DNA of 64,000 nt from Synechococcaceae cyanobacterium (GTDB taxonomy: Bacteria; Cyanobacteriota; Cyanobacteriia; PCC-6307; Cyanobiaceae), in assembly GCA_947378425.1 (NCBI GenBank), contig CANCJV010000011.1:1-64000 (forward strand), given 5' to 3'. Below the pieces are notes generated by a model. The model did not search any database, was not told the DNA's origin, and worked only from the letters and a program-made list of their open reading frames with translations. Within the stretch, counting starts at the first letter, position 1. Each line of letters begins with the position of its first letter. Made by a program: the position numbers and the translations under genes. Of the stretch, positions 5,799 through 32,322 are shown piece after piece.

Positions 5799-5858
5799 GT
5801 GGGGGCTCCGGCTCGCACACTCCTCACACCCCCCGGCCCGGCGCGTCCGGGCTTTTTG
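5799..5858 (+). ncRNA. yfr1: Yfr1 small regulatory RNA
   Basis: Yfr1 is a short trans-acting sRNA found in almost all cyanobacteria, known in picocyanobacteria between guaB and trxA. It has a 5' hairpin, an unpaired CU-rich stretch with the ultraconserved ACUCCUCACAC, and a 3' terminator hairpin. All three parts are visible. A 5' stem can form between GTGGGG (from 5799) and a CTCGCAC stretch ending near 5818, with a bulge. The exact motif ACTCCTCACAC is at 5819-5829. The terminator stem is GCCCGG (5836-5841) with CCGGGC (5847-5852), followed by TTTTT. The inferred length is about 60 nt, in the known range. Its motif base-pairs with translation start regions of outer-membrane porin mRNAs in Prochlorococcus. 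The 5' end is inferred. Confidence 0.88.
5836..5858 (+). terminator. Intrinsic terminator of yfr1
   Basis: A 6-bp perfect GC stem (5836-5841 with 5847-5852) has a 5-base loop and is followed by five T and then GTC. It forms the 3' end of Yfr1 and may also stop guaB3 readthrough before trxA. Confidence 0.85.
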
Positions 5859-15160: not shown

Positions 15161-16067
15161 GCTGTACATAGCGATCAATGGAATTTTGCGGTGTTTCAGG
15201 CGGAGCCGGATCTGATCCGCCTGCTGCTTCCCCATGGCGCCGGCTCGGCAGAGACCAGCCAGGCCGACCAGCGGCAGCAGCACCGCTTCGTCGCCGAGGA
15301 GGTCAAATCCGTTCGCCACCAGCTCGATGGCGTTCTCTGACCCAGGGACGACGAGCGGGGCAGCCCCGAACGGCCGGTGGTGATCCTGGAGGTGCAGATG
15401 CACCCGGATCGGGGCTTTCAACGGCGCCTGGGTGCCGAAAGCTTCCGCTTCCTTCAGCAGCATCCCCGGGTGCAGCATCTGCAGGTGGTGCTGCTGGTGC
15501 CCCACCGGCGGTTGAAACTCGGCGACGACCAACCCGAGCTGCTCAAACGCTTTCTCCTCCAGGATGTGATCTGGGTGGATCTGGCTGAGCTCAGTCAGGT
15601 TGAAGAACCCGATCTGCGGCTTGCCCTGCTCACCCTTCCCGTTCGCCCCGAAGCCGCTCTGGTGCCCTGCTGCCGCAGGATCCTGGCGCTGCGACCGGAG
15701 TTGCTGGAGTTGATTCTGCCTAGGCTGGGCGAACGATTCGCTGGGCTCACGAACGAGGAGATCATGGCCACCATCGGTATTTCCCGAGACAGCTGGCGCC
15801 ATACCCGTGCCTTCCAGGAGATCCTCGAGGAAGGCCTGCAGACAGGACTCCAGACTGGGCGCCAGGAAGGGCGTGGGGAGGGCTCCTGCGGGAAGCCACC
15901 AGCCTCTGCCTGCGCCTGCTTCACCATCCCTGGGTCCCCCCGATCCGGTCACCACGGCCCGCATCGAGCCACTGGCGCTGGAGCAGCTGGAGGATCTGAG
16001 CCTCAGTCTGCTGGATTTCAGCGCGGCGGCCGACCTGCAGCACTGGCTGGAGCGGCAGCAAGCCTGA
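15161..16067 (+). pseudogene. Decayed DUF2887/Rpn-family nuclease-like gene
   Basis: Conceptual translation gives a recognisable DUF2887-type protein (PD-(D/E)XK-like, related to recombination-promoting Rpn and ISxxx-associated proteins) broken in several places. The first part reads QWNFAVFQAEPDLIRLLL and FVAEEVKSVRHQLDGVL, then an in-frame TGA at 15338-15340. The same frame continues as PRDDERGSPERPVVILEVQM through the core ending in the Gly/Gln repeat EGLQTGLQTGRQEGRGEG. After about 15880 the reading moves frame (LLREATSLCLRLLHHPW), and moves again to finish as LEQLEDLSLSLLDFSAAADL up to 16067. No ATG is found at the natural start, where the frame reads VHSDQW. One nonsense codon, a lost start and two shifts mark it as non-functional. 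Confidence 0.8.
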
Positions 16068-16386
16068 CCCGATCTGGGCCGCGGAACCCACCGCGCCAGT
16101 CCTCAGCAACGGGCTGCGCCGATCGCTCCCGGGCCGGCAGAAAAGCCCAAGGGGTGCACCCGATTGGAAGGGCAACTCGACAGGGCTCATGCCAGTAGCC
16201 CCCGGCGTCCAACAGGCCCCAGGAGTTTGCTAAAACCCTGCCCTGAACAAGATGGAGCGCTGCTCTGCGGGGCGGCAACCGTTGATTGCCAGCGGCGCTC
16301 TCCATCGCGGACGAAACGCGGGTTCGCTCTTTTGAAGGGATTGTTCTGCAAACTCCTACCTTCCCCAGCGCGCCTGGATCACGCTG
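16068..16386. other. 319-bp gap before TVP38 gene
   Basis: No gene is supported here. The first 150 bp show nothing distinctive. The rest holds a 137-bp inverted-repeat element (16221-16357) ending 29 bp before the next start codon. Confidence 0.7.
16221..16357. repeat. 137-bp nested inverted-repeat element (MITE or structured RNA candidate)
   Basis: The ends are perfect 10-bp inverted repeats, AGGAGTTTGC at 16221-16230 and GCAAACTCCT at 16348-16357. Inside, GAACAA (16245-16250) faces TTGTTC (16341-16346). GATGGAGCGC (16251-16260) can pair with 16295-16306 with a 2-base bulge, and GGCAA (16274-16278) with TTGCC (16286-16290). It has no coding capacity. No target-site duplication is visible. 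It could be a miniature inverted-repeat transposable element or, given the nesting and its place just before a start codon, a 5'-leader RNA structure. Confidence 0.55.
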
Positions 16387-16950
16387 ATGCCCCTGCTGAT
16401 CCCACCGCCGCTCTTTGCCCTGCTGCTGGCGGGCGCCGTCGGATTGGGGCTGCCGGGGGGCGTGTTGGTGGTCAGCGCCGGGGTGCTCTATGGCGGCGGC
16501 ACCGGCCTGGCGGTGGTGCTGGCGGGGGAGGCCGCCGGCCTGGTGTTGAACTGGTGGCTCTGCCGGGGGCTGCTGCGGCCCCGGATCAGCCGTTGGCTGG
16601 AGCGTCAGCGGCGCGGCCGGCGCCTTAGACGGCTGCTGCAGACCCCGGCGAGCCTGCGCCTGATGCTGTTGCTGCGGCTGGCCCTGATTCCGATGAATCT
16701 GGTCAATGCGAGCTGTGCCCTGTCGCCGACACCGGGCCGCACCTACGCCCTGGCCTGCCTGGTGCTGATCCCGCGCTTTGCCGTGCTGGTGCTGGCCGGA
16801 GCGGTGGGGGCGGAGGCCAGCCGCGGATCGCTCAGCCCCCTGGCCATCGCCAGCCGCGTCGTCGCCCTGGCCGCCACGGCCGCCGTGCTGCTGATCATCG
16901 GGCGGCGCCTGGGGCGGAGCCTGCGGCTGGCGGAACCGGCTGAGAGCTGA
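16387..16950 (+). CDS. TVP38/TMEM64 (VTT-domain) membrane protein
   Basis: The 187-residue, strongly hydrophobic protein has about five membrane segments. The layout is that of the VTT/SNARE-associated family: an N-terminal pair ending in GVLVVSAGVLYGGGTGLAVV, a cytoplasmic Arg-rich stretch (QRRGRRLRRLLQ), then LRLMLLLRLALIPMNLVNAS with the conserved R-x-x-x-x-P-x-N segment. The usual F-G-x-x-x-G entry motif is only partly kept. Family members (DedA, YdjX/Z, TVP38) are implicated in lipid scrambling or membrane homeostasis. ATG at 16387 is preferred. The inverted-repeat element ends 29 bp upstream and may affect its expression. Confidence 0.72.
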   Translation: MPLLIPPPLFALLLAGAVGLGLPGGVLVVSAGVLYGGGTGLAVVLAGEAAGLVLNWWLCRGLLRPRISRWLERQRRGRRLRRLLQTPASLRLMLLLRLALIPMNLVNASCALSPTPGRTYALACLVLIPRFAVLVLAGAVGAEASRGSLSPLAIASRVVALAATAAVLLIIGRRLGRSLRLAEPAES

Positions 16951-16974
16951 AAGCAAAGGACGGCAACCAGGCGC

Positions 16975-17025
16975 TGGCTCGGCAGCCGTCCCCTGACTTG
17001 GCAGCCGTCCATGGCTGCCGAGCCA
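16975..17025. repeat. 13-bp inverted repeat with internal direct repeat
   Basis: TGGCTCGGCAGCC (16975-16987) is the exact reverse complement of 17013-17025. An 11-bp unit GGCAGCCGTCC occurs at 16981-16991 and again at 17000-17010 in the loop. It begins 25 bp after the TVP38 gene stop. It could act as a transcription-end hairpin or be a repeat relic. Confidence 0.7.
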
Positions 17026-17282
17026 GACCAAGGACAGCGATGCCGGATTCGCGGGGCGAGTGGCCGGCGGCGGCAACCAGCTGCAACCAGTGGCACCACC
17101 ATCCGGGCTGCCATCAACCAGGCTGCCACCAGCTGATCACGACGCCGCAGCGCGCTGCCTACGGCCAGAACGCCCCAGCTCCAGGACTCAGGCCGGGACC
17201 CGTCCTGAGATGCCCATCCATAGATGCCCATCCATCCCCGCGGCAAGAACAGCCGAAAAGCCTGCGCCACGCAGGCTCTGCT

Positions 17283-17315
17283 GGCACACCCTCCATTTAG
17301 AGGGTGGCGGTGCCG
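17283..17315. repeat. Hairpin upstream of the giant gene
   Basis: ACCCTC (17288-17293) pairs with GAGGGT (17300-17305) around a CATTTA loop. The flanking GGCAC and GTGCC can extend the stem with unpaired bases. No T-run follows. It lies about 130 bp before the first start codon and its role is unknown. Confidence 0.45.
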
Positions 17316-17447
17316 CTAGAAAAGCCATAAGAATGACTGAAAAGCATCAGAAGAGCAGCGAAACAGCTAGATCACCCGGCCCCGGGGGGCGGGTGGATGA
17401 GCCAGCCGCTTGCGCCGATCTGAGCTTCGCGCCGCCACCTCTCTTCC

Positions 17448-17840
17448 ATGGCCACCACCAGCAGCATTCAGGTCGTCAACGACGCCAACGGCACCGCCTA
17501 CGGCTTTCTGGCCAACGATGGCCAGCTGCTGCAGTGCCGCTGGGACAGCCAGGCGGAGCGCTGGGTGGACACCACGCCGGTACCGGGCGCGGTCGGCGGC
17601 AATGCCGTGCAGGCCACCTACCTCGACAACCTCTGGGCCAACGAAGCGGGCGGCTCGAATGCCCAGGGCCAGAGCTGGGATCCGGGCATCGTGCTGCTCT
17701 ACCGCAAGGGCCAGGACAGCCAGGCCGAGATCTACGCGGTGTTCGGCCGCTGGGATGACAACGGCGACCTGCAGTTCAGTCAGGAGGTGCAGCTCACCGA
17801 TGACACGCTGAACGACAGGGAGTTCAGCCTGGTGGCGGGC
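17448..17840 (+). CDS. N-terminal segment of the giant surface protein, separated by a +1 frameshift
   Basis: From the ATG at 17448 about 130 codons read as a coherent protein start (MATTSSIQVVNDANGTAYGF, then LLYRKGQDSQAEIYAVFGRW and DDTLNDREFSLVA). The coding frame then moves by one base. The shift maps to GGG at 17837-17839. Removing one G gives LVAADANGQFTLVSQK, joining smoothly to the long frame. Downstream in this frame the sequence is a Pro/Gly/Gln-rich shadow up to a stop at 18447-18449. Either the genome has a real frameshift in a short G-run, or one G is a sequencing or assembly error. The segment is listed apart because it is out of frame with the main body. Confidence 0.7.
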
Positions 17841-17865: not shown

Positions 17866-20800
17866 GTGAGCCAGAAACAGCAGCAGGTCCAGAACCTCTC
17901 AGCCAACCAGAATGCCCTCCAGAGCGGCAGCCTCAGCCCGGAGCAGGCGGCCCAGCAGGCGATCAGCGGCCTGGTGCGGCCCGACAGCGATCTGTACACC
18001 ACCAGCTTTCAGATCCTGAACCCGGGTTCCGGCCTGGCGCCGGTGCTGCAGGGGAATCCCGTCAAGGCGAGCGCCACCAGCAGCCCCACCTGGACCAGCA
18101 TCGCCACCCTGGAGAGCAGCAGCCAACCGGCAGCGCCAGCCCCTGCCCTGCCGGACGGCTCCTCAGGTGGCAGCAGTGGCTTGTCCCGCGCCTCCCTGAT
18201 CGCCCCGGCAGCCATGGCCGCGGGGGTCTCCGCCGCCGCCATGGCCGCCAGCCAACCCCCAGGCCTGGGTGCCTCCACCCCCACGGGCGGCGCCTGGGAA
18301 GTGGGAAGGAAGAAAAATCCCAGTTCCGTGCAGGTGGGCTACCTGGCGGAAGTGACGCGCTGGGGTGTGGCGATTCCCTGGGGAGTGGCCAGCAACTTCG
18401 AGAATCCAGGCACGTCACTGGACAAGGTCTACAAAGCCCTGTTCATTGAACGCTGGGGAGGACAATCCCGGCTCGTCTTTAGCCTGAGCGGCTTTTTCGG
18501 CTTCACCAACCAAGCTGGAGTGCTGGCATTCAGAAGCCAGGCAGAACCGACCATTGGCTTGCTGATAGGCGGCCAGGAGAAGAAAAAAGATGCCTCAGTA
18601 TCGAGATACCTCAGAGGCCTCAAAGATTTCAATGCAATCACAAATGATGCAGTTGGATTCAAGGTCGTCAACAGAAAATTCTTCAGAATAGCGCTATCCG
18701 GCTCGACAGGTAGCACAACGTATTACGACCGAACCGCAGCTCACAATCCAACCTTTCTTCAGGCAAGGGAAGCCCTGTCAGCCAACGCCGGCTTCGTGAG
18801 CAAAAACACCTGGGCCAATATCTCCGCCGAGGGAATTCCCTCTGTCACATCCTTTGACTTCAGCGCCAGTGACGACTTTGGTTATCAGTGGCTCCAATCA
18901 ATGGGCAACGGCAAAACTCCCCTGCCCACATCAATCACGAAGGGCACAACCGGGAAAGTCGTCGGCGGCATAGGCGATGCAGAAAGCTTCCTTGAATTTG
19001 TAGCCGGACTTGGGGTCGTCATCTCCAAAGCAAAGGGGGCAAGAGATGGCGGAACGCTGATCGCCAGCGAAAAATACGAGGACTCAAAATTCTTCAAGAT
19101 TAAAAATTTCGCTAACGCCATTCTTGGCCTCAGCACTGCCCTGATCGACCCCATCTACCTTTCACTAAACAGCAGTGAATACCAGGCAAATCCAGAACTT
19201 TACTACAAACGGAGCAGCGGCTTTTTTGACACTTTTAAGCTGACACTGGAAGGCAGGTACATGGCTGCCTTCGGCCTTGAAGGCACAGCGCTGAATGAGT
19301 CAAAGAGCGTGCTGGTCGATGCCGGCAACACCACCACCTCCGATACATTCCTGGCCGAGCTCGCTGTTGGTGTCTTTGGTGCCTGGCAACCGGTTCTGTC
19401 CATCGACAACACCTACCCCGCACCGAAGCCCGCATCAACCAGCAGCAGCAATGTTGTCAACGCTCAAGCTCAAGTCCCAGCCCTAGCCCCAGCCACTGGC
19501 GGCGGCAGCATCGTCTATGCACCCAGCCAGGGCAGCTACCTCTACTGGGCACCCCCCACCGGCGACCACCTGCTCACCGGCCAGAACACCCAGACCCTAA
19601 GGCTGCAGAAGCTCTTCGCCACCAGTGCCAACTTGATGCAGACCAATGCCACCCTCCAGCAGGGCAATGGTGGCACTGGTTTAAACAATGGCACCTACAC
19701 CAATGTTCGCCTGCTCGGCGTCACCCCCGGCGGTGAGGAAGACCTCGCTGAGGCCACGATCGTGGTGTCCGGGGGCAAGATCACCAGCCTGGTCATCACC
19801 CGGGCCGGCATCTATGGGTATCTGCCCGAATACGCCAACAGCAGCAGCACGGTGGTGGTGGTGCCGGATCTGGTCAGCGTCAACGCCAGCACCGGCACAG
19901 CCATCGTCAACAACGGCGCCATCGCCAAGGGACAGGCCACCCCTCCCACAGTCATTCTCAGCTCCGCCGACAGCAGCATCTGGAGCAGCCAGGCCGCCGC
20001 CGTGATTCAGAGCGTGGATGTGGCCGATGGCGGCAGCGGCTACCAGCCCTTTGATGCTGTCAGCCAGCAGCCCAAAACACTACCGCAGGACAACCACAGC
20101 CCCTACACCTACACAGCGGTGGGCTACACCGTCTACCAGGGCAATACACCCGTGCCCGGACTGGTGCCAGGCAGTGCAGCAACGGCCACGGTCACCATCA
20201 TCGATGGCGCCATTGTCAAGGTGAGCCTGGATCAACCCTTCTATTGCACCCCGCCCGCCAATGGCAGCCCCAGCTACAGCCTGGCGCTCGATCTGCCAGC
20301 AGGGGTGACGCCAAGCCAGGCCGCTGTGCTGACGCTGACACCGACGACACTGGTGTACAACAACTTCATTGATGAGCACAGTTTCTTCACGGAGCGCTCC
20401 GTGCCTGGGGCGATTGCGGCGCCGAGCACCAGCGGCGTTTACATCGCCGATGGCAATACCAATCAGGCGCCTTTGTTCGCATCTCAAAAAGCCAATCCCA
20501 TTGCCAGCCGCGTGGTCTTCGTGGATGGGGAAAGTAATAACACCAATAATCTCAATACGTATTACCTCAATGGCATTCAGTGGAATTCAAGCTCCAGCAC
20601 CTGGCAGGCCGGTGTCAATCGCACGGTGGATCCGAGCCCCTCACTGTCCTGGAAAGCAGAAGAACAACAGTTTTCTTTAGCGCGCCTTCCGGTTGCCACC
20701 AAACTGCCGGCAGATAGCAGTTTCGGCAACATCGAGGGCGGCGATCTTGTCGCCTGGGTGGAGGTGATCGCTCGACCGGTGCCCAACAGCGGTAGCAGCG

Positions 20801-23800
20801 GCGCCGAGGACTACCAGAACTTCTACAACAACTACTTCAACAATCAGCAGATCGCCTTCTCGATCCACACCACCGCCGGCTGGCAGACCAATCCCTTCAA
20901 CTACATCGCTGCCGACAACGCCATCATCGACGACCTGGACATCGCCCTGGTGCCCGGCAGCACAGCCGAGGCCCCGCTGCAGGTGCTGCTCACCTGGAGT
21001 GAGACCTCGATCGCGGCTGTCAAAGGCCTGGCTCCCCTCTCTGAAACTCCGCAGAGCGGCAAGGCCCCCACGGTGATCAAAGCGGCCCTGTTTGATCCCA
21101 CCAGCCAGAGCTTCCAGACACCCCAGACGATCACCTGGGCCTCCCCCGATGCCGTGGGTATCGGTGTCGAGGATCTCAGCATCAGCACCATGGCGATCGC
21201 CCAGCCGGACGGCAGCCTCAGCCAGCAGCCGGCGATCTTCTGGAGCCAGAACGTGGCCGTGCCCTATGCGCAGGCCGTGCTCACCTCCGACCCCTACGTC
21301 TATCTGCAGATGAGCCAGGGGCAGGCGGGCGTTGGCAACGACAACATCGGCAGCCTCGGCGACTCGCCGGCGGCGGTCACCAGCGCCTCGAGCACCGGCC
21401 TCGATTTCAACGTCGCCGGTGCCCTGGGAGTCAACAGCGATGCCGCCATCGAGAACATCAACGGCACGGGCGTGCTCAGCACCGGTGTCGGCAGCCTCAA
21501 CACCTTCGTGCCGGCGCCGGCCCAGCCCTCCAGCACCACCCCCGGCAGCGGGGTGGTGCGCAGCCCTTACACGATCGAGTTCTGGGCCCGCGTTCCGCAA
21601 ACCGGCAATGCCAACGGGGCCGGCCTGTTTGCCCTCGGCCAACCCTCGATCACCACCGGCCAGCTGCCCACGGGCTGGCTGCTGAGCTCCGAATTCCTCG
21701 TCGATCAGATCAGCTACCAGGACGCCCTCGGCAGGGGCCTGACCGACAGCAGCAGCATCCCTCCGGGCACCGACCTCAATACGGCGTATGCCTACGCCTG
21801 GGCCGTGGTGGCCAATGGCACCAACACCACCGCCATAGGCGGCAACGGTGGCAGTGGTGGCAGTGGTCTCTACAGCAACGCCCTGCAGATCACCAACCTT
21901 CAGGCCGGCACCGCGGTGGCCGGGGTGAACGACTTCCTGGCCAGCTACGGACTAGCCGCCAACGCCTTGATCGGCACGACCGGCACTGCCGCTGGTGTGA
22001 TTGCCGAGGTGCCCGTCACCAGCCTGCAATTCACCACAGCCCTGCTGGATGGTGCACCCAATTCAAGCCTCGACACGATTGCGGTCAGCAGCGATCAGGC
22101 GCTGATGAATGGCGGCCTGGTCACCACCGCCAGCAGCGACTGGGCCAACAACAGCAACCTGCAGACCCTGTTCCAGAACCTCTGGAACTACCAGCAGAAA
22201 GCAGGCAAGTCCAAGGTCAACTTCGGCCTCAATCCCAGCAGCTCGGCGGCCAGCGGCAGCATCCCGCCGCAGTATGCGCAGGAAAACTATGGCGGCCTCG
22301 CCCTCGACTTTGCCCTGACCCATTCAACGGCCGTGTCGGTGAATAGCCAGGGACAGGTGGTCTTTGATGTCGGCACCCAGACCTCGCTGCTGAGCAGCAG
22401 TGACGGGGTGACACCGCTGAGTATCAACGACGATGCCTGGCATTACATCGTCGCCACCTACCTGCCGGACATTGAGACCCAGGTCATCAATCAGCAGGCC
22501 GTGGATGTACCGCTCACCACAGGCCGCGCCAGCCTCTACATCGACAACCAGCTGGTGGGCCAGACGGCCCTCAGCGATGTGTTCAGCCCGGCAACGGAAG
22601 CCCAGGATGCCCTGCTGATCTATCTCAACAATGGCGGCGCCATCGACGAACTGGCGCTCTACCAACAATCGCTTTCCGGTCTCGATCTCCCCACACCCTC
22701 CAATCCCAGCGGCGCCTGGCCAGTGATGACGGGCTCCGATGCCGCTGGCCTGCTCGCCAGCCTGGGGGTGAACGTCGGCGGGCTGTCGGCGGCACCTGGG
22801 GTGGAGACCGGTGCGGTCAACCTGCACTGGAAGGCCCGCTCCGTCGATCCGAATGGGGCCGAAAAGGCCACCTTCTACACCAACTACGACGAGTCATCCA
22901 GCAGCTGGACCAAGGCCGAGCTACTCAATCCCATCCCTGCACCGGTGGCCACCCAGCCCAGCGGCAGCCGCAGCACCTCGCTGCAGGACACCGATCTGTT
23001 GCAGATCAATCCCAGCGATTGGAGCAAAGCCGGCTTCAACCCCGCCAAGCAGCAATTGCAATCGGTGACCGTGAACCTGCTGAACAGCAGCGATCCCAGC
23101 ACCATCATCAGCACCTACAACCTCGATCCCAGCCAGGTGCTGATCGGCGAGCAAACCCTGCTCAGTCGCCAGCCCCGGGCCACCAGCAGCGATCTTCAGT
23201 ACACCTTCCTCAACAACAGCCCAGCGGTGGGACTGTTGGTGCCGATGAGCAAGCTCGGCAGCCAAGCAGCGCTCTACAGCTACGAGCTCAACTTCTTCAA
23301 TCCCGCCACCAACGGCAGCAGCACCTTCTCCTCGGCCCAGCTCAATACCGGCGGCCTCAATGCCATGGTGCCGGTCACGGGCCCCAGGATCAGTGCCAAT
23401 CCCAATCCCCGCAGCCTCACCAGCAATCCGCTCTACCCCGAGCAGATCGTCAGCGCCGACATTCTCGAAGCGGCTCCTTACCAGCTGCAGTACATCGACA
23501 GCGGCGAAGTGATCCGCTCCCAGCAGAACCCCGCCAACACCAGCAAGGGCTTCGGACTCTCCCAGGTGGCGGGGCGCTACACCTCCACCATCACCGGCTA
23601 TGCAGGAACCGCCGCCGGCTGGTTGGCCATCTCCCAGCCGTTCACGCCCTCAGCCGACAGCAACCCTGCCGGTCGGGTGTGGGTTCAATTCACGGGCCTT
23701 TATCCCGAGAACCCCAGCAGCGGCAATCCACCCGTCGGCCTCAGTCCAAGCACCTGGCTCAATGCCCTGGCACGCAGCAACTTCAATGCCGATGCGCCCA

Positions 23801-26800
23801 ACCTGCCGCTGCTGCAGGATGCCAAGTCGCCGAGCAGCAGCGGCGGCCTGCTGATTGAGGCCGATCCCACCGAGGGCTGGGGTGGCAATCTAGGCCGCGT
23901 CATGCTGGTGGCCGACCTGGATGGTGATGGCTGCGATGAATTAGTTCTCTCAGCTCCAGACACCAACAGTGGCGGCAGCGTCTACATCATCTCCGGCAGC
24001 TGGATTCAAGCCAACCTCAACAGCAATCCTGAGAGCCTCGATCTCAACAATCCCGACGCTCTCGGTGTGGGCATTGTCACCGTATTGACGCCGCAACTGG
24101 CAGGAGCCGACCCCGCGGGCAGAGATTCCGGCAATGCCCAGTTCGGATCGGCCCTCGCCTTTGACGGCACCGCGCTCTACATCGGCGCCCCCACCTATCG
24201 CTCCGAGGTGGTGAGTGACGATGCCACATCCGCCGTTCCCGTCGGCGCCGTCTATCGCTACGCCCCCACCGCCGCCGGCGGATCAGCGGTCCTGAGCCTG
24301 GAGCAGACAGGCATCGGCGGCACTCTGGTGAGCCTCGGTGCCGCCGGCGAGGAGATCATCAGCTACTGGGGTGAGCGGCTGGGCAGTTCCCTGGCCGCCA
24401 GCTCCACCCCCGGCAGCAACGGCGATGCCGCCACGGTGGAACTGGCGATCGGCGCGCCGGGCCTGGTAGCGGGCCTGCAATACAGCGGCAACAAGGAGCT
24501 GCAGAACGAGCAGGAACAAACCACCAATCTCACCACCAAGACCAACAGCAATCCCTATGGCGATGGCGCCCTGCTCAAGGTGAAACTGCCAGCAGCCACA
24601 GCCAACAGCATCAATCTTCCCGCCGGCAGCAGCAGCTATACCGCCATCGCCAATTCGGCCGAGGGCAATGCCAACGAAGCCTCCGCCACCATGCAGCGCC
24701 TCAAGGCGCTGATGACCAATCCGATCGCGCAGGCCACCACCTTTTACGATCAGAGCCTCACCGCCAATGAAATTGGGGCTGTTTATTATACCAAGTTCAG
24801 CCGCGGCTCCAGCAGTGCCGAGCAGACATCAGTGTTCTATGGCGCCTCCCCCTGGAACACCGGCTCCAGCGGCTTTGGCAGCAGTGTTGCCTTGGCCGAT
24901 CTCAACAACACCAACGCCAACACGCTGGTCATCGGTGCTGATACCAGCGGTGGATCCGGGGCCGCCTACTTCATCAATCCCAGCACATTGCCAGCAACAG
25001 TGCTGGGCCAGACCAGTTCCGGGGCCAACCAATATCTCGCCCACCTGTCCGCCGGCCTCACCCTGTATGGCCAGAACGCCAACGACCACTTCGGCAATGG
25101 CCTGGCCAGCACCGGTGATGTCAATGCCGATCCCGGCAATCCCTCCTACAGCGGCTACAACGACCTGCTGATCAATGCCTATAACGCCCAATCAGGCATG
25201 GGGATCGGCTATCTGGTCTTCGGGGGCGATAGCATCCTCGGCGATCCCACCGATTCAGCCAATGGCCCCTACACCGGCACCGTTTCGGCCGGTGGCATCG
25301 GCACGATCTCCAACAACAACGGCAGCATCAACCTCAACATTCTCAGCGAATCCGGCAGCGCCAGCCAGGAGAACGTGGGCTTGGGCAGCTTCAATGCCCA
25401 TGATGTCAACGGCGATGGCATCAACGACATCCTGCTCGGCGGCCGCGGGGCCGGCAATGGCTATCTCACCTGGGGCAAGACTTACCTGCAGGACATCAGC
25501 AACTTCCAGCTCAACAAACTGGCCAGCAATCAGGGCTTCCTGCTGGAGGGCCTGGCCACCACCACCCAAGCATCCCTGTGCTCGATCAGCGACTTCAACG
25601 GCGATGGCTATGGCGACTTTTATTCCGTCACCCCAGGCGACTATCTCACGGCGGTGCGGGTGGAGCTGGGGGGCTCCAGCGAGGCGATCCTGGCTGATTA
25701 CCTCTACAACGATTTCAGCTTCTACGTCGACAACGGCACCCAGATTCTTGCGGCAGGCGATCTCAACGCCGATGGCTTTGATGATCTAGCGTTGTTCCTG
25801 AGCCAGAACCTCAGCAGCAGCTCCCAGGGTGCCGGCAGCACCACCGGCATTCTCTACGGCCGTCCCAGCGAAACCCTGCCTCTGGCTTCCGGTTTCGGTC
25901 TACTGGCACCGGCGGGTCTGACGCCCCCAAGCCAGGACGTGGAGTACGGCCTCAGTGACGTCGCCCCCTGCTTCCTGGCCGTGGGCGACATCATTTATTC
26001 GGTGGTCAAATCCTGGGACGACAACACCCTCTGGTTCAGCCGCAGCGCCGACTCCGGCAACACCTGGGATACCTGGGTTGACATCAGCGCCAGCCAGCCC
26101 GACATCAGCTCGTCGCTGCCTGTCTCGCTCGCCTATTACCAGAACAAGCTCTATCTCGCCTTCAGCAACAGCGCCCAGGGCATCAGCCTGGCGTCATGGG
26201 ATCCCAGCACCAGCACCACCTTGGACCAGTGGTCGGGATCAACGCCAATCCAGCTCGCCACAGCCAGCTCCGCCACCACCACGACCACCCCGGCAACCAA
26301 TCTGGCGCCGCTGCTGCTCAATCAGGGCGATGCGCTATCGCTCTACTGGGTCGACCAAACCAGCCAGGCGATCACATCAGCCACCTCCACCACACCAGCA
26401 GCGGCCACGAGCTGGTCGCCGGCATCAACCCTCAGCAGTGATGCCGCCGGCACGCCGATCCTCAGTGCCACGGCCCTGGCGGGCACCCTGCTCAACGGCG
26501 TTCCGGTTCTGGCCTACGGCCAGGCCAATGGAGGCAGTGGCACCGGGCTGGACGCCATCGCCCTGCTCAGCCCCGACGCCGGCGGTGTGCTCTGGCAACA
26601 GGAAGATTCGATCCCCCTGGCTGACTCGATTCCGCTCAACTCCCTGGGCCTGACCAGCACCGGCACCGGCCTGGCACTCACCTACACCAATGCCGACCAG
26701 CAGATCGTGGTCAATCAGCTGCGGCTGCTGGAGGCCGCCGGCGACTCGCCCACCTGGCTGATCAACGACAATCCGCAATGGGAAACCAGCATCCTGGCAG

Positions 26801-29800
26801 GAGTCAGCTCCAACCTCGGCAGTGCACCCGTGGTGGTCAACAATCTGCTGCTGGTGGGCAGCGTCAGCGAGGACTTGGCGGTGGGACTGCAGGCCGTCTC
26901 CAGCAGTGATGCGGTGCCCTGGCTCACCTGGATGGACAGCACAGTTCAGCTCCCTGATGGCAACGGTGGCTCGATCCTCACTCAGCGGGCTGGTGCTGAT
27001 TACAGCCTTGGCGGCCTGGCTGCCGGCACCTGGCAGGACGTCGGCGGCGGCGCCGCCCTGTCGCCAGCCGCCCTGACCCGCAACGGCAACACCGTGTACA
27101 TGGCCGTGCGGGGAACGACAAATAACCTCTACTGGAACAGCAGCACCGACAACGGCAAGACCTGGAACAGCAGCTGGCAGGGACTGCCCAGCAGCATGGG
27201 TACTTATACAGCTCCTTCGATTGCCTATTTCAACAACACGCTTTATCTCTGTTACGTCGCCGCTGGCAGCAACGATCTTAACATCACCTACCTGGAAAGT
27301 GGCAACAACTGGGTAACCCAATATCAGATTCCCGGCCAAACAGCCACCGCCGCCTCAATGATCGCCGAGGGCGACAATCTTGCCGTTTACTTCATCGCCA
27401 ACGACTCGTCTGATCGCATTCTCAAGAGTTACAGCAGCCAACCGAGTGGCACCTCCTGGACCAACACCTCGGTGCTCTACGGCGGTGGCTCCATTCAGAC
27501 CGCCAGCAGCAATCTGGCGCTCACCCGCTACAACGATCAGACCTACATCGGCTATCAGGGCGGTACCTACGGCAATCCCAGCAGCACGATCTATCTCACC
27601 ACAGCCAGCGATACCGTCGCCAATGGTGGCTCGCCGATCTGGAGCCTGCTCGACACCCCTGCTGGCACCAACTCCGTACTGCAACGAGGGGTGGGCCTGA
27701 CCAGTGGCAGCCAGGGTCTGGTGCTCACCTACACCGACACGAATCAACCGAATCAGGTGGCTGTCCAGCTCAGCAATGCCGACGTCAGCGACTGGCTCGC
27801 GCTGAACGATGGCCAAGCTCTCTCCTCCAACATCGGCTACACCCCCCTGATCACAGCCAATGCCCAGAATCCGCTGCTGATTGCCGGCATGGGCCCCAAT
27901 CCCAGCAATCCGTCCTATCCGCCGACCAACGTGCAGTTGAATGGGCTCAACGCCCAGGTGTTGAACAGCAGCCAGACGGGCTCAATCCTCAGTGCCGTCG
28001 GTGATCTCAACGGCGATGGTTACGACGACCTGGCGATCAGCGCCAACAATGTGGCCTATGCGGCCTCGGGTGATTTCAGCGCCAGCGATGCGGAACTGGC
28101 CACGGGTGTGCGCTTCCTGCTGGGGGCTGATACTCCGGCCGCCGTCCAGAACAGGAATCTCTCGACAGCCACAGAGCAAAGCGTCCAGATCGCCGCTCTG
28201 TACCCACAACAAACCTTGCCCAGCTTCACCCCCTTCGCAGCGCTCGCTGGCGACAACAGCCTCCGCCTCAATGGTGTCGAGGCTGGTTCCACTTATCAGA
28301 TCAGCAGCACCGCTGGCAGCGCCTCCGGCACGTCCCTGAACATCGCCGATCTCACCGCCACGGCCAGCAGCCCCGGCAGCCTGCAACAGCTGTTTGCCGG
28401 CGCCAGCACCAGCATCAAGCCAATCGCCAACCCGCTCACAGCTGGCTATGCCGGCACACCCTCCCTGCAGACGCTGGCGGGCTTCGGCGATCTCAATGGC
28501 GATGGCTACACCGACTATCTGGCAGCCGATGGCCTATCCAGTCTCTATCTGAGCGACGGCAACCTGGCCTACTCCGTCTGGAGCATCCGGGCCGCCGGCG
28601 ATGTCAATGGCAACGGCTTTGACGACGTGATCCTGGCACTCACGCCACCGGAGAGCGCCAATCAGGACATCCAGACCGTGCTGCTGGATGGCTCGCTGTT
28701 CAAGGTGAAAGACAATCAGTTCAGTCTGGCCCAGGCGGAGGGGAGCTACGAGACAGGCTGGACATCGGCAGGGCTCAAGGCACCCCTGAACCAGTATCCC
28801 TATCCCGGCAGCATCAACCAGGTCCCCTCATTGCAAGTCTGGTTTGAACCGATCCAGACCTACAACGGCTACAGCCAGGCCACGGCCCTGAACAGCGCCA
28901 GCAGCGACAAGCAGACCATCGAGCTGTCCTCAGCCACCACGAGTGTCGGCGCCACCGCCGCCACCGTTGATGGGTCCGGCACTGCGTACGTGGCGGTGTC
29001 GAACAACGCACCAAATGCCAAAGGGCTGAATTATATTTTGCTCTCCTATGGCAAACCCGACTCCTCCAGCTGGACATCTGTGACCGTGCAGGGTGTGCCA
29101 ACCAACACCAGAAGTGCGCCTGTCGTCACCAGCACGGCGATCTATCAGAATTACATCTACATCGCCTACACCTGTGGCAACAAGCAGCTCTGGATCGCCA
29201 GCGCCAATCTCTCCAGTGATCTCACCCAGGCGGCCAGCTGGGCAAATGTCAATATCAACAGCATCCAGGGCTCCGGCGAATTGGTCAATGAGGGCAACAG
29301 GCTGGCTCTCTATTACACCGCTTACAACTCCAACTACAACCGCCAGGCCAGCAACACCAACCTCTACTCGCTCTACTCCACCGGATTCACCAGCAACACG
29401 GGGGTCAGCTGGGCCAGCAGTGGCACGGCCCTCACGGACACCTCTGGTGCGAACCTTTCCGCCTCCAACCTGGCAGCCACACGCCTGCAGGGCAAGACCG
29501 TTCTGGCCTTCTATTCGGGCAGTTATAGCAACTCCAACACAACCCTCACCTTCGCCCAGCCTGTCTCAGGCGAGCCGGGCGCGGCATGCGACACCTACCA
29601 AAGCGCACTCGGCTTCGCAACCAGCGGAGTGCCGCCGGTGCTCGGACTGACTGCCAATGCCAGCCAGCTGTATCTGAGCAACTCCTTCTTGTACGCCGGC
29701 AATTGCTACATCGCCACGGGCGCAGCATACAATTCCTGGTCAAATCAACTGAACAATATCAACAATATTCCGGGTGACAACAACAACACAAGCACAGTGT

Positions 29801-32322
29801 TCGTCAGCGGCGGTCAGCTCTATTCGGCTTACTCACAGCAAACCAGCGGGAATCAGGTTCTCAATGTCACACCCACGGACATCCCCCCCACCACAGCGAA
29901 CCAGGCGTCCCTGGCTGGTTATTCGATCGATGGCAACCTCGACATCAATGCCGATGGCTACAAAGACATTCTGATCAGCGATCCCAGCAATCCAGCCGCA
30001 GGCCTGGCCAATCAGTACGCCCTGTTCGGTGGCGACTTCCTCGACATCGCCAATCAGATCGGCACCCCCAGCGATGACACCCTGCTGGGTACACCCCTGG
30101 TCGACATCATGGCCGCGATCGATGGCTCGGACCGCATCGAGGGGCGCGGCGGCAAGGATGTGATCCTCGCCGGCAACGGTGACGACCAGATCTGTCTGAT
30201 CGACAACGACTTCCTGCGCATCGATGCTGGGGCCGGCATCGACACCCTGTTGCTGCAGGGTCCAGCCAACCAGAACTGGAGCTTTACTGAGGAAACACAA
30301 AGCAGTGCAGACCCCTCAGGCGCCGATCCAAGCACCTATTACATCCGGCCCGGCAACCGACTGAAATCAGTGGAGTTGATCAGCAGTGTGGATTATGGCG
30401 CCAACACCCTAAGCTTCGATGCCTTCGCCGTTGAAAATCTCAACGAAGATCAGCTGCTGTTCCTGGTGACGGATGCCCAGGACTTGATTCAACTGAGTTC
30501 TGACTTCAGCCGCAATACCAAAGCTGATCTCGTCTATGGTGGTGCCCGCTGGAATGGTTTCACCGCCAGCGACAGTGCGGCAGTGGTGTTCGTCCTGGTA
30601 CCCAGTTCCCAGACGGCCGTGAACACTGACGGCGAAAACAGCTGGCTGGCCAGCCACGTCAGCACAACTGCCGCTGCGCCAGCAGCCCTGGCGCCGCAGC
30701 CCCTGGCCGCCAGTGCGCCTGGCGACAGCGTTGATCCTGCGGATGGTTATCTCGCCTGGCTTCAGCAGCAAGCCGGCTCCCAGTCGATCCAGACCGACGA
30801 CTACACCGTCGCGGCCATGGCCGCGACGGAAGGGAACAGCCTTCGCTACACAATCAGACGCAAAGGCTCGATCAACACACCCCTCGCCATTCAGTACAGC
30901 TCCAGCTCCGAGAACGGCACCACCAGCCTGGGCGTTGACTGCCCAGCCGTCGCCGGCATCCTGTGGCTCAAGCCCGGAGAGATCAGCAGAACGATCACCG
31001 TCCCCAGCTTCAGTGATGCCATCGCCGAGGGCCGGGCAGAACGGGCGAGCTTGCGCTTCAAGACCGTGGATGCCCTGCAATATCCCAAGGAGGTGAACCT
31101 GATGATCAGGCCCACCAAAGCAGCGGTGTTGAGTGGCTTCCGCTTCAATAGCGGCGAACTCCAGTTCCGCGCTGATGCGTCCGGCGGCGATGACAGCACT
31201 CTCAGCTTGATGATCAGCGAACGCGTCAGTGCCGATGCCAGCACGTTCTCAGCCACCAGAGAGGTGACACTCGCCGACTTCCAACGAAACGGCAACTTCA
31301 CCATGCCGGTCAATAATTTTGATCCCCTACCCCTGGATCAAGATGGCCTCTCCAATCAGCAGGTCACAGTCCGTCTGCAGCTGAACACCGCTGCCGGCTC
31401 CCCTCGATCCCAGGTCTCCCTCGTCGGTCCAAATCTGATCTGGCAAACCTCCGTCCAGCTGGTGACTGCCAACACGGTGCACTTCAGCCAGAACGCTCCT
31501 CTCACCAGCTGGCGCGCCGACAGCGGCTCGGGCCTGGTCACCTTCGGGCTCCAGTCGGATATCGGCAACCTCACCCTGATCAGCGGCGCCAGCGGCGGCG
31601 TCAGCGGCAGCCTCAACCCCAGCAACGCCAACGACGACAACCCCGCTGGCGGCTGGCAATCCACCGAATACAAGGCCATCGGCAGCCGCTCAATCACCGC
31701 GGGGCAGAACCTCAGCGGCCGCGAATGGACCCCCACCGCCAGCCGCGACGGCGTCTCCCTGGAACTGCTCAACCTGGCGGTCGATGGCAACCAGGTCACC
31801 GCGTCCTTTGCCGGTGGTGTCACCGGCGTCTTCTGGCAGGCCAGTGGCAACGCCCCCACCGTCCTGCCGGCCCCGGCCGCCGTCGAGGTGCAGCGCCTGG
31901 GCGGCGATGCCAACAGCCTCGGCTTCTACACGGTGGATTCGATCACCGGCAGCGTCGGCGACTTCAATCCCGGCGACAGCGGTTATCTGCAAGCGGCCCT
32001 GGCCCGCTCCAAAGATGAAGGCCTGCTGCTCGATGCCGCCTCCTTACCCGACTTCGGGGCATCCGCCACCTTCAACGCCCTGCCGCTTGACACCCGCGAG
32101 CGCTACGGCCTGTTGCTGCTGCAGAAGGGCGATTCCGCCGTCATCTTCTCCTCCTTCGCCGCCGCCAACCAAGGCGGTGCCACCCAGATGGTCAGCCTCA
32201 GCAACACTGCCAACAACCTGGTGCTCGGCATTGAAGACCAATCGGTGGCGAGCGGCAACAGCGACAGCGACTTCAACGATCTGATCGTCCGCATCCAGAA
32301 TGTCGCTGTGCAGGTGTTCTGA
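17866..32322 (+). CDS. Giant multidomain surface or secreted protein (4,818+ residues)
   Basis: A single frame of 4,818 codons; with the upstream segment the protein would have about 4,950 residues. The listed start is a GTG and may not be used. Approximate order of parts: an unrecognised region whose nucleotides at 18460-19330 are AT-richer; a LamG-like region (about 1230-1620; SPYTIEFWARV, DDAWHYIVATYL); FG-GAP/VCBS calcium-binding repeats (about 2010-2670 and 3375-3600; VADLDGDGCDELVLSAP, GDLNGDGYDDLAISA); sialidase Asp-box propeller modules (SADSGNTWDTW near 2722, STDNGKTWNSSW near 3090); an RTX-like calcium block (about 4070-4132; SDDTLLG, GRGGKDVILAGNGDD); a Calx-beta-like stretch (about 4312-4415); and a DUF4114-like tail with SDSDFNDLIVRI. 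No signal peptide is seen. RTX repeats suggest type I secretion. Such proteins are usually adhesins or cell-surface proteins; the function here is not known. Confidence 0.8.
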   Translation: MSQKQQQVQNLSANQNALQSGSLSPEQAAQQAISGLVRPDSDLYTTSFQILNPGSGLAPVLQGNPVKASATSSPTWTSIATLESSSQPAAPAPALPDGSSGGSSGLSRASLIAPAAMAAGVSAAAMAASQPPGLGASTPTGGAWEVGRKKNPSSVQVGYLAEVTRWGVAIPWGVASNFENPGTSLDKVYKALFIERWGGQSRLVFSLSGFFGFTNQAGVLAFRSQAEPTIGLLIGGQEKKKDASVSRYLRGLKDFNAITNDAVGFKVVNRKFFRIALSGSTGSTTYYDRTAAHNPTFLQAREALSANAGFVSKNTWANISAEGIPSVTSFDFSASDDFGYQWLQSMGNGKTPLPTSITKGTTGKVVGGIGDAESFLEFVAGLGVVISKAKGARDGGTLIASEKYEDSKFFKIKNFANAILGLSTALIDPIYLSLNSSEYQANPELYYKRSSGFFDTFKLTLEGRYMAAFGLEGTALNESKSVLVDAGNTTTSDTFLAELAVGVFGAWQPVLSIDNTYPAPKPASTSSSNVVNAQAQVPALAPATGGGSIVYAPSQGSYLYWAPPTGDHLLTGQNTQTLRLQKLFATSANLMQTNATLQQGNGGTGLNNGTYTNVRLLGVTPGGEEDLAEATIVVSGGKITSLVITRAGIYGYLPEYANSSSTVVVVPDLVSVNASTGTAIVNNGAIAKGQATPPTVILSSADSSIWSSQAAAVIQSVDVADGGSGYQPFDAVSQQPKTLPQDNHSPYTYTAVGYTVYQGNTPVPGLVPGSAATATVTIIDGAIVKVSLDQPFYCTPPANGSPSYSLALDLPAGVTPSQAAVLTLTPTTLVYNNFIDEHSFFTERSVPGAIAAPSTSGVYIADGNTNQAPLFASQKANPIASRVVFVDGESNNTNNLNTYYLNGIQWNSSSSTWQAGVNRTVDPSPSLSWKAEEQQFSLARLPVATKLPADSSFGNIEGGDLVAWVEVIARPVPNSGSSGAEDYQNFYNNYFNNQQIAFSIHTTAGWQTNPFNYIAADNAIIDDLDIALVPGSTAEAPLQVLLTWSETSIAAVKGLAPLSETPQSGKAPTVIKAALFDPTSQSFQTPQTITWASPDAVGIGVEDLSISTMAIAQPDGSLSQQPAIFWSQNVAVPYAQAVLTSDPYVYLQMSQGQAGVGNDNIGSLGDSPAAVTSASSTGLDFNVAGALGVNSDAAIENINGTGVLSTGVGSLNTFVPAPAQPSSTTPGSGVVRSPYTIEFWARVPQTGNANGAGLFALGQPSITTGQLPTGWLLSSEFLVDQISYQDALGRGLTDSSSIPPGTDLNTAYAYAWAVVANGTNTTAIGGNGGSGGSGLYSNALQITNLQAGTAVAGVNDFLASYGLAANALIGTTGTAAGVIAEVPVTSLQFTTALLDGAPNSSLDTIAVSSDQALMNGGLVTTASSDWANNSNLQTLFQNLWNYQQKAGKSKVNFGLNPSSSAASGSIPPQYAQENYGGLALDFALTHSTAVSVNSQGQVVFDVGTQTSLLSSSDGVTPLSINDDAWHYIVATYLPDIETQVINQQAVDVPLTTGRASLYIDNQLVGQTALSDVFSPATEAQDALLIYLNNGGAIDELALYQQSLSGLDLPTPSNPSGAWPVMTGSDAAGLLASLGVNVGGLSAAPGVETGAVNLHWKARSVDPNGAEKATFYTNYDESSSSWTKAELLNPIPAPVATQPSGSRSTSLQDTDLLQINPSDWSKAGFNPAKQQLQSVTVNLLNSSDPSTIISTYNLDPSQVLIGEQTLLSRQPRATSSDLQYTFLNNSPAVGLLVPMSKLGSQAALYSYELNFFNPATNGSSTFSSAQLNTGGLNAMVPVTGPRISANPNPRSLTSNPLYPEQIVSADILEAAPYQLQYIDSGEVIRSQQNPANTSKGFGLSQVAGRYTSTITGYAGTAAGWLAISQPFTPSADSNPAGRVWVQFTGLYPENPSSGNPPVGLSPSTWLNALARSNFNADAPNLPLLQDAKSPSSSGGLLIEADPTEGWGGNLGRVMLVADLDGDGCDELVLSAPDTNSGGSVYIISGSWIQANLNSNPESLDLNNPDALGVGIVTVLTPQLAGADPAGRDSGNAQFGSALAFDGTALYIGAPTYRSEVVSDDATSAVPVGAVYRYAPTAAGGSAVLSLEQTGIGGTLVSLGAAGEEIISYWGERLGSSLAASSTPGSNGDAATVELAIGAPGLVAGLQYSGNKELQNEQEQTTNLTTKTNSNPYGDGALLKVKLPAATANSINLPAGSSSYTAIANSAEGNANEASATMQRLKALMTNPIAQATTFYDQSLTANEIGAVYYTKFSRGSSSAEQTSVFYGASPWNTGSSGFGSSVALADLNNTNANTLVIGADTSGGSGAAYFINPSTLPATVLGQTSSGANQYLAHLSAGLTLYGQNANDHFGNGLASTGDVNADPGNPSYSGYNDLLINAYNAQSGMGIGYLVFGGDSILGDPTDSANGPYTGTVSAGGIGTISNNNGSINLNILSESGSASQENVGLGSFNAHDVNGDGINDILLGGRGAGNGYLTWGKTYLQDISNFQLNKLASNQGFLLEGLATTTQASLCSISDFNGDGYGDFYSVTPGDYLTAVRVELGGSSEAILADYLYNDFSFYVDNGTQILAAGDLNADGFDDLALFLSQNLSSSSQGAGSTTGILYGRPSETLPLASGFGLLAPAGLTPPSQDVEYGLSDVAPCFLAVGDIIYSVVKSWDDNTLWFSRSADSGNTWDTWVDISASQPDISSSLPVSLAYYQNKLYLAFSNSAQGISLASWDPSTSTTLDQWSGSTPIQLATASSATTTTTPATNLAPLLLNQGDALSLYWVDQTSQAITSATSTTPAAATSWSPASTLSSDAAGTPILSATALAGTLLNGVPVLAYGQANGGSGTGLDAIALLSPDAGGVLWQQEDSIPLADSIPLNSLGLTSTGTGLALTYTNADQQIVVNQLRLLEAAGDSPTWLINDNPQWETSILAGVSSNLGSAPVVVNNLLLVGSVSEDLAVGLQAVSSSDAVPWLTWMDSTVQLPDGNGGSILTQRAGADYSLGGLAAGTWQDVGGGAALSPAALTRNGNTVYMAVRGTTNNLYWNSSTDNGKTWNSSWQGLPSSMGTYTAPSIAYFNNTLYLCYVAAGSNDLNITYLESGNNWVTQYQIPGQTATAASMIAEGDNLAVYFIANDSSDRILKSYSSQPSGTSWTNTSVLYGGGSIQTASSNLALTRYNDQTYIGYQGGTYGNPSSTIYLTTASDTVANGGSPIWSLLDTPAGTNSVLQRGVGLTSGSQGLVLTYTDTNQPNQVAVQLSNADVSDWLALNDGQALSSNIGYTPLITANAQNPLLIAGMGPNPSNPSYPPTNVQLNGLNAQVLNSSQTGSILSAVGDLNGDGYDDLAISANNVAYAASGDFSASDAELATGVRFLLGADTPAAVQNRNLSTATEQSVQIAALYPQQTLPSFTPFAALAGDNSLRLNGVEAGSTYQISSTAGSASGTSLNIADLTATASSPGSLQQLFAGASTSIKPIANPLTAGYAGTPSLQTLAGFGDLNGDGYTDYLAADGLSSLYLSDGNLAYSVWSIRAAGDVNGNGFDDVILALTPPESANQDIQTVLLDGSLFKVKDNQFSLAQAEGSYETGWTSAGLKAPLNQYPYPGSINQVPSLQVWFEPIQTYNGYSQATALNSASSDKQTIELSSATTSVGATAATVDGSGTAYVAVSNNAPNAKGLNYILLSYGKPDSSSWTSVTVQGVPTNTRSAPVVTSTAIYQNYIYIAYTCGNKQLWIASANLSSDLTQAASWANVNINSIQGSGELVNEGNRLALYYTAYNSNYNRQASNTNLYSLYSTGFTSNTGVSWASSGTALTDTSGANLSASNLAATRLQGKTVLAFYSGSYSNSNTTLTFAQPVSGEPGAACDTYQSALGFATSGVPPVLGLTANASQLYLSNSFLYAGNCYIATGAAYNSWSNQLNNINNIPGDNNNTSTVFVSGGQLYSAYSQQTSGNQVLNVTPTDIPPTTANQASLAGYSIDGNLDINADGYKDILISDPSNPAAGLANQYALFGGDFLDIANQIGTPSDDTLLGTPLVDIMAAIDGSDRIEGRGGKDVILAGNGDDQICLIDNDFLRIDAGAGIDTLLLQGPANQNWSFTEETQSSADPSGADPSTYYIRPGNRLKSVELISSVDYGANTLSFDAFAVENLNEDQLLFLVTDAQDLIQLSSDFSRNTKADLVYGGARWNGFTASDSAAVVFVLVPSSQTAVNTDGENSWLASHVSTTAAAPAALAPQPLAASAPGDSVDPADGYLAWLQQQAGSQSIQTDDYTVAAMAATEGNSLRYTIRRKGSINTPLAIQYSSSSENGTTSLGVDCPAVAGILWLKPGEISRTITVPSFSDAIAEGRAERASLRFKTVDALQYPKEVNLMIRPTKAAVLSGFRFNSGELQFRADASGGDDSTLSLMISERVSADASTFSATREVTLADFQRNGNFTMPVNNFDPLPLDQDGLSNQQVTVRLQLNTAAGSPRSQVSLVGPNLIWQTSVQLVTANTVHFSQNAPLTSWRADSGSGLVTFGLQSDIGNLTLISGASGGVSGSLNPSNANDDNPAGGWQSTEYKAIGSRSITAGQNLSGREWTPTASRDGVSLELLNLAVDGNQVTASFAGGVTGVFWQASGNAPTVLPAPAAVEVQRLGGDANSLGFYTVDSITGSVGDFNPGDSGYLQAALARSKDEGLLLDAASLPDFGASATFNALPLDTRERYGLLLLQKGDSAVIFSSFAAANQGGATQMVSLSNTANNLVLGIEDQSVASGNSDSDFNDLIVRIQNVAVQVF

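Follow-up and report, generated by a model that had tools for sequence, protein, structure and literature searches.

We found that a nested inverted-repeat structure upstream of a gene encoding a TVP38/VTT-domain membrane protein is, with high confidence, a decayed miniature transposable element (MITE) with IS5-type ends, drawn from a dispersed family. The element has relatives scattered through its own and related genomes, its ends resemble those of IS5-family insertion sequences (ISs), a degenerate YTAR target signature flanks the copies of the family, and the element is missing from the orthologous site in the five closest relatives. These observations bear out one of the two readings offered by the original prediction, that of a miniature transposable element. 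We infer that an IS5-type transposase was the mover, and that the element was gained at the TVP38 site rather than lost in all five relatives.

The palindromic element and its surroundings

The features discussed below lie in the window, by which we mean the whole 64,000-nucleotide stretch of DNA that was analyzed. All are on the + strand.

16223..16355, +, MITE proper, more likely than the wider 16221..16357; 133 bp, with boundaries taken from the empty-site and family flank comparisons; ends GAGTTTGCTAAAA... on the left and ...TTCTGCAAACTC on the right, oriented as in the family alignment
16221..16230, +, left arm of a perfect 10-bp inverted repeat, AGGAGTTTGC; its first 2 bases are part of the flanking 4-mer
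16348..16357, +, right arm of the same repeat, GCAAACTCCT; its last 2 bases likewise fall within the flanking 4-mer
16219..16222, +, presumed left copy of a 4-bp target duplication, CCAG, degenerate (CTAG or TTAG in relatives)
16356..16359, +, presumed right copy of the duplication, CTAC, degenerate
16251..16306, +, inner imperfect hairpin of the family core, with arms 16251–16267 and 16290–16306
16387..16950, +, TVP38/VTT-domain membrane protein gene (Pfam PF09335, E = 6e-14), outside the element
15377..16198, +, frame with DUF2887 profile positions 60–197 (Pfam PF11103, E = 8.9e-11), outside the element

The layout agrees with what had been described at the outset. The arms are complementary at 10 of 10 positions, the inner pair of arms nested within the 137 bp is 76% complementary, and 29 bases separate the end of the right arm from the TVP38 ATG at 16387. 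The 133–137 bp leave no room for a transposase gene. At a GC content of 0.577, the element is poorer in GC than the window (0.67) and its two flanks (0.69 and 0.75); 6.7% of sequence windows go as low.

Folded as RNA, the element has a minimum free energy of −57.7 kcal/mol (z = −3.1; such a low value came up in 1 of 200 shuffles), and its reverse strand folds as well (z = −3.2). The original prediction had called the arrangement unlikely by chance, a judgement that holds only in part: perfect 10-bp inverted pairs are common in this DNA, with 62 distinct pairs at spacings of 20–250 bp against 34 ± 7 in 20 dinucleotide shuffles. After GC correction, a fold as good or better occurred in 45 of 6387 windows (step 10) on the + strand, the element included, and in 399 of 6387 on the − strand. 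We therefore hold the element to be real because of its relatives, described below, and not because of its fold. The nested fold itself arises from inverted ends surrounding an imperfectly palindromic core; the inner hairpin belongs to the core of the MITE family and is not a conserved RNA fold.

The DUF2887 frame lacks the start of the domain. Its decayed state had been read as a hint of a mobile element; that hint carries little weight, as what looks by eye like similar DUF2887 sequence stands upstream of TVP38 in three relatives that lack the element (L034–L036). Counting paralogues, 38 of 42 genomes in the genus have TVP38 matches, and 12 matches beyond the window's own reach E = 4.5e-40 or lower. 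Scanning 15900–17450 gave no promoters or terminators, and the 64-kb window contains no tRNA or tmRNA. Elsewhere in the window, the Yfr1 small RNA, a sign of a cyanobacterial genome, lies at 5799–5855 on the + strand (Rfam RF01116, 64.8 bits), and 17866–32322 (+) is one open frame with a GTG start that encodes a giant protein of 4818 amino acids.

A dispersed family of divergent copies

Direct similarity searches did not reveal the family. BLAST with the element DNA against the source genome returned only the element itself, and with the element plus its surroundings, against the source genome and 59 others, only the element and pieces of TVP38 coding starts stood out; BLAST is blind to the relatives because the family is too divergent. 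A pattern of the exact ends likewise matched only the window element in the source genome and nothing in the viral contigs. Among the genome contigs it matched eight stretches, none of which gave a significant match to the family profile (best E = 0.58). Three of these eight AGGAGTTTGC...GCAAACTCCT pairs fall in one Spirochaetaceae metagenome-assembled genome, JAIRMP (L067 2503–2627, L068 2177–2301 and L069 96–231), and carry further internal copies of AGGAGTTTGC or GCAAACTCCT. The JAIRMP repeats form a palindromic family that has identical 10-bp ends but is unrelated.

A covariance model built from the window sequence alone and its predicted fold, minus its 2-pair helix, was run on the 42 genomes, with E values calculated per genome. 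It matched two loci end to end, G028:C13:3460–3591 (39.2 bits, E = 3.4e-6) and G020:C59:42713–42847 (24.6 bits, E = 0.032), and two further loci partially, in G013 and G019. BLASTN with the G028 copy across six genomes yielded more copies in G020, G028 and G021, and so reached other copies independently of the window element. A second model (R2) was made from 11 sequences, including the window element (alignment A4); three of the 14 first sequences (L087, L093 and L099) were excluded, as their right halves do not align. Among the matches listed at E up to 0.1, R2 hit 11 of the 42 genomes and none of the other 31, with at least 44 matches in G020, 33 in G016, 31 in G028, 10 in G007 and 8 in the source genome, and 1 to 3 in each of six more; a few of these matches are a single place read on both strands.

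From these searches 80 stretches were taken, and the 78 copies with E up to 1e-5 were aligned. Their lengths are nearly constant, at 127–140 bp in 74 of the 78, the others including one each of 116, 171 and 178 bp. The terminal repeats are imperfect in most other copies (68.7% of cells paired in helix 1).

A sequence-only model (R3) built from the 78 copies, window element included, was then applied to 13 chosen genomes at E ≤ 0.01. It returned 9 matches in the source genome, 49 in G020, 39 in G016, 37 in G028, 13 in G007, 5 in G014, 4 in G021, 3 each in G032 and G062, 2 in G025 and 1 in G024, counts in which some matches are two pieces of one copy; G060 and G027 had none at this threshold. 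The nine matches in the source genome occupy nine places, the window element among them, and the weakest score 20–29 bits. The window copy is itself divergent, at 43.6 bits compared with 95 for the best copy of that genome. The proposed search for copies sharing the exact ends found those ends once in the source genome; R3 gave nine matches there and others in relatives. The element is not a single unconserved copy, and related IS ends are present in the same genome. In 145 genomes of the class searched at E = 0.001, the matches listed comprised the source genome and two weak partial ones, in G009 within the genus and in G091 outside it.

As a check, a profile was built from 73 copies, all from genomes other than the source. 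With this profile, 16221–16357 matched over its full length (E = 5.6e-10), the second-best place in the window had E = 0.048, and the reversed window gave nothing below 1.2. The element scored 32.8 bits, and the best of its 1000 shuffles 4.3. This check is not wholly independent, because the copies were collected with R2, of which the window element was one of 11 sequences.

These matches bear directly on the idea that the structure is a chance palindrome without relatives. Inverted pairs of such size are common in the window and direct BLAST gave no second copy, as that idea would have it, but the single-element model and the 73-copy profile reveal relatives, and the idea that shared composition produced these matches finds no support in the 1000 shuffles. 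We regard a chance palindrome as refuted by the profile matches, with a probability close to nil.

At one place, copies appear to be shared by three species (L148 in one, L185/L164 in the others; G021, G020 and G028). The G021 copy there is only about 0.6 identical to those of G020 and G028, and judging from this divergence, the copies at that site may possibly be independent insertions.

IS5-type ends, target signature and empty site

The consensus ends of the MITE family are about GAGACTGCTGAAAAACC and GGTTTTTCAGCAGTCTC. With one mismatch allowed, the left-end pattern was found in 17 of the 42 genomes, and YTAR stood just outside such ends at all eight sites inspected. IS5-subgroup elements take YTAR as their target. 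G060 holds a complete IS of 1362 bp that has ends of this kind and CTAG on both sides; its transposase is assigned to the IS5 family by NF033581 (243.6 bits; cut-off 140) and carries the Pfam domains DUF772 and DDE_Tnp_1. Identical YTAR 4-mers flank the best-scoring ends at 6 of 12 transposase loci (G060, G013, G031, one in G029, G009 and G022), and two more loci (the second in G029, and G061) have identical YTAR with tied or lower-ranked end candidates; of the remainder, the flanks differ in G019, a single end is seen in G028 and in G021, and G007 has no clear pair. IS5-family ISs of the genus end in GAGTTCGCTGAAAAAC...TCTGCAAACTC or GAGGCTGCTGAAAAACC...TTTCAGCAGCCTC with YTAR outside, and the window element has ends of this kind; unlike them, it lacks a transposase, and the likeness seen is in the ends. 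The element ends in G029 and G031 (GAGTTCGCTGAAAAAC, and TCTGCAAACTC or CCGCAAACTC) nearly equal those of the window element; at the right end (16339–16355), 15 of 17 bases equal the right end of the G029 IS5-type element. IS ends GAGGCTGCTGAAAAACC and GAGACTGATGAAAAACC also recur near contig edges, with 10 hits in G027 (L212, L227 and L236) and 8 in G025 (L214, L228 and L237), which suggests insertion sequences present in several copies, at which these assemblies break.

Transposase relatives are present in 29 of the 42 genomes. Six matches occur in the source genome, all of them fragments; those on C59 lie within a remnant ending in GGTTTTTCTGCAAACTA, and near the C67 fragment there is a GAGTTCGCTCAAAAAAC end preceded by TTAG. 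The search gave no intact partner transposase for that genome, and because the relatives found there are fragments, the element is probably immobile now. A 131-bp element in G062 (L253 2241–2371; G062:C4) has similar ends and TTAG on both sides around a largely different core, which matches the family weakly (19.3 bits, E = 8.7e-4); it is perhaps a younger, sister miniature element.

We examined target duplications in 75 copies, three of the 78 having been dropped for a length outside 126–141 or short flanks; this test followed a wide scan over duplication lengths and offsets. The 4-mer outside GAG...CTC was YTAR on the left in 17 of the 75 and on the right in 11, compared with 0–1 and 0 at eight other offsets, a count that the consensus itself explains in part because two of the four letters sit inside the modelled ends. 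The signature falls at the offset predicted from the IS. Left and right flanks agreed at 1.89 of 4 positions, compared with 1.53 after shuffling (a value reached in 0 of 2000 shuffles for the observed agreement), and 20 pairs agreed at three or more letters where 11.8 were expected, among copies that are not independent because many insertions are shared between species. Exact 4-bp duplications were seen in 3 of 75 copies (1.6 expected). The flanks of the window element, CCAG and CTAC, are unequal. Judged from the empty-site comparison below and from the family flanks, the element proper is more likely 16223–16355 than 16221–16357, the outer AG and CT being the likely remains of a degenerate target duplication.

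To study the empty site, we aligned with MAFFT the five closest TVP38 orthologues among the 12 close matches. The element is absent from all five, and YTAG stands at each junction, as CTAG in G028, G020 and G021 and as TTAG in G007 and G014. Joining the window's flanks gives GGCCCTACCTTCC, to be compared with GTCCCTAGCCTTCC in G028; in the alignment, an offset of one column separates YTAG from CTAC/CCAG of the window, and only about 10 bp of the left flank are aligned. The absence from five relatives is clear, and the apparent junction position fits well without being proven. In the same five relatives (L033–L037), a block GKCCYTAGCYTKYCGGC upstream of TVP38 is held in common, and the element splits it in the window (16200–16400).

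The proposed course of events is that a transposase acting in trans would have inserted the MITE at a YTAG between the DUF2887 and TVP38 genes, that the insertion would have duplicated the 4-bp target, and that the MITE ends and both target copies would have mutated afterwards. A different kind of mobile or palindromic repeat, one that owes its movement to something other than an IS5-type transposase, is highly unlikely. Speaking for such a repeat are the few intact duplications (3 of 75), the MITE-rich G016, in which no transposase matched at E ≤ 1e-10 (the genome is 64% complete), and G060 and G027, which have the IS ends yet no family match; it is opposed by the match of both ends to IS5-type ends and by YTAR at the IS-predicted offset.

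Regulatory RNA, host function and known elements

The second reading in the original prediction was a cis-regulatory RNA, that is, a riboswitch-like TVP38 leader whose nested hairpins in the mRNA control the gene. The strong predicted fold and the place 29 bp before the ATG would suit it. Moreover, the fold projected onto the 78 copies pairs 59.8% of cells, compared with 32.5–46.6% for versions slid by 1–3 columns, with a covariation score of 0.123 compared with 0.052–0.100; the fold beats its slid versions by construction, because it was drawn from one member of the family and the terminal repeats are complementary anyway. Against shuffles the advantage vanishes, as pairing was 59.8% compared with 59.2% (56 of 500 as high) and covariation 0.123 compared with 0.121 (168 of 500 as high). 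RNAalifold gave eight pairs without two-sided change from 11 copies and no pairs from the 78. Upstream of TVP38, where covarying changes were to be sought, the five closest orthologues lack the element, and copies occur at many other places. No Rfam family matched the element at the gathering score, in agreement with the view that it fits no known riboswitch class; in the whole window only Yfr1 did so, and the two matches to the element at E up to 10 were far below gathering. We consider a TVP38 leader RNA exceedingly improbable.

A MITE family retained for a host role that it has acquired, for instance in ending transcripts or processing mRNA, is very unlikely. The narrow length range of the 78 copies is in keeping with such a role, as are the 23 pairs of copies that two species carry at a shared place. 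Within those pairs, on the other hand, mean identity was 0.82 in the element and 0.80 in the adjacent 100 bp (higher in the element in 14 of 23), and about equal divergence gives no sign of selection for function; a conserved fold is absent as well.

ERIC elements are about 127 bp long. The decayed MITE and its relatives, compared by description, resemble them as imperfect palindromes of near-constant length that are dispersed at uneven copy number, and differ in their hosts and in the related IS ends and target signature found for the present family. A review of such elements notes that ERIC copy numbers in enterobacteria vary widely between relatives (PMC10969869). It describes prokaryotic MITEs as shorter than 500 bp and typically AT-rich, with short terminal inverted repeats and no transposase gene, mobilised in trans, and with direct repeats retained only in younger copies (PMC10969869). 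The window element fits this description in its length, terminal repeats and lack of a transposase gene and, on the present reading, would also do so in its mobilisation in trans and its lost direct repeats; it differs in base composition, being poorer in GC (0.577) than the window (0.67) but not said to be AT-rich. Nezha and ISSoc2-derived MITEs are named there as known in cyanobacteria (PMC10969869) and, as far as that description goes, are likewise non-autonomous miniature elements.

The family is real and ordinary in kind, and it appears to be unnamed; no titles or abstracts describing it were found in a search that covered few subscription papers. We rate as doubtful the wider proposal taken as a whole, in which an apparently undescribed IS5-type MITE family, limited to part of one picocyanobacterial genus and expanded in a few species, landed here in the GKCCYTAGCYTKYCGGC block and may have altered TVP38 control. 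A riboswitch candidate is removed, and in its place stands a mobile-element family defined by its ends, length, target signature, likely partner and host range, which can be masked in later scans. Its uneven copy numbers (49, 39 and 37, compared with 0 to 13 in ten other genomes) could be used to probe why MITEs expand in some picocyanobacteria.
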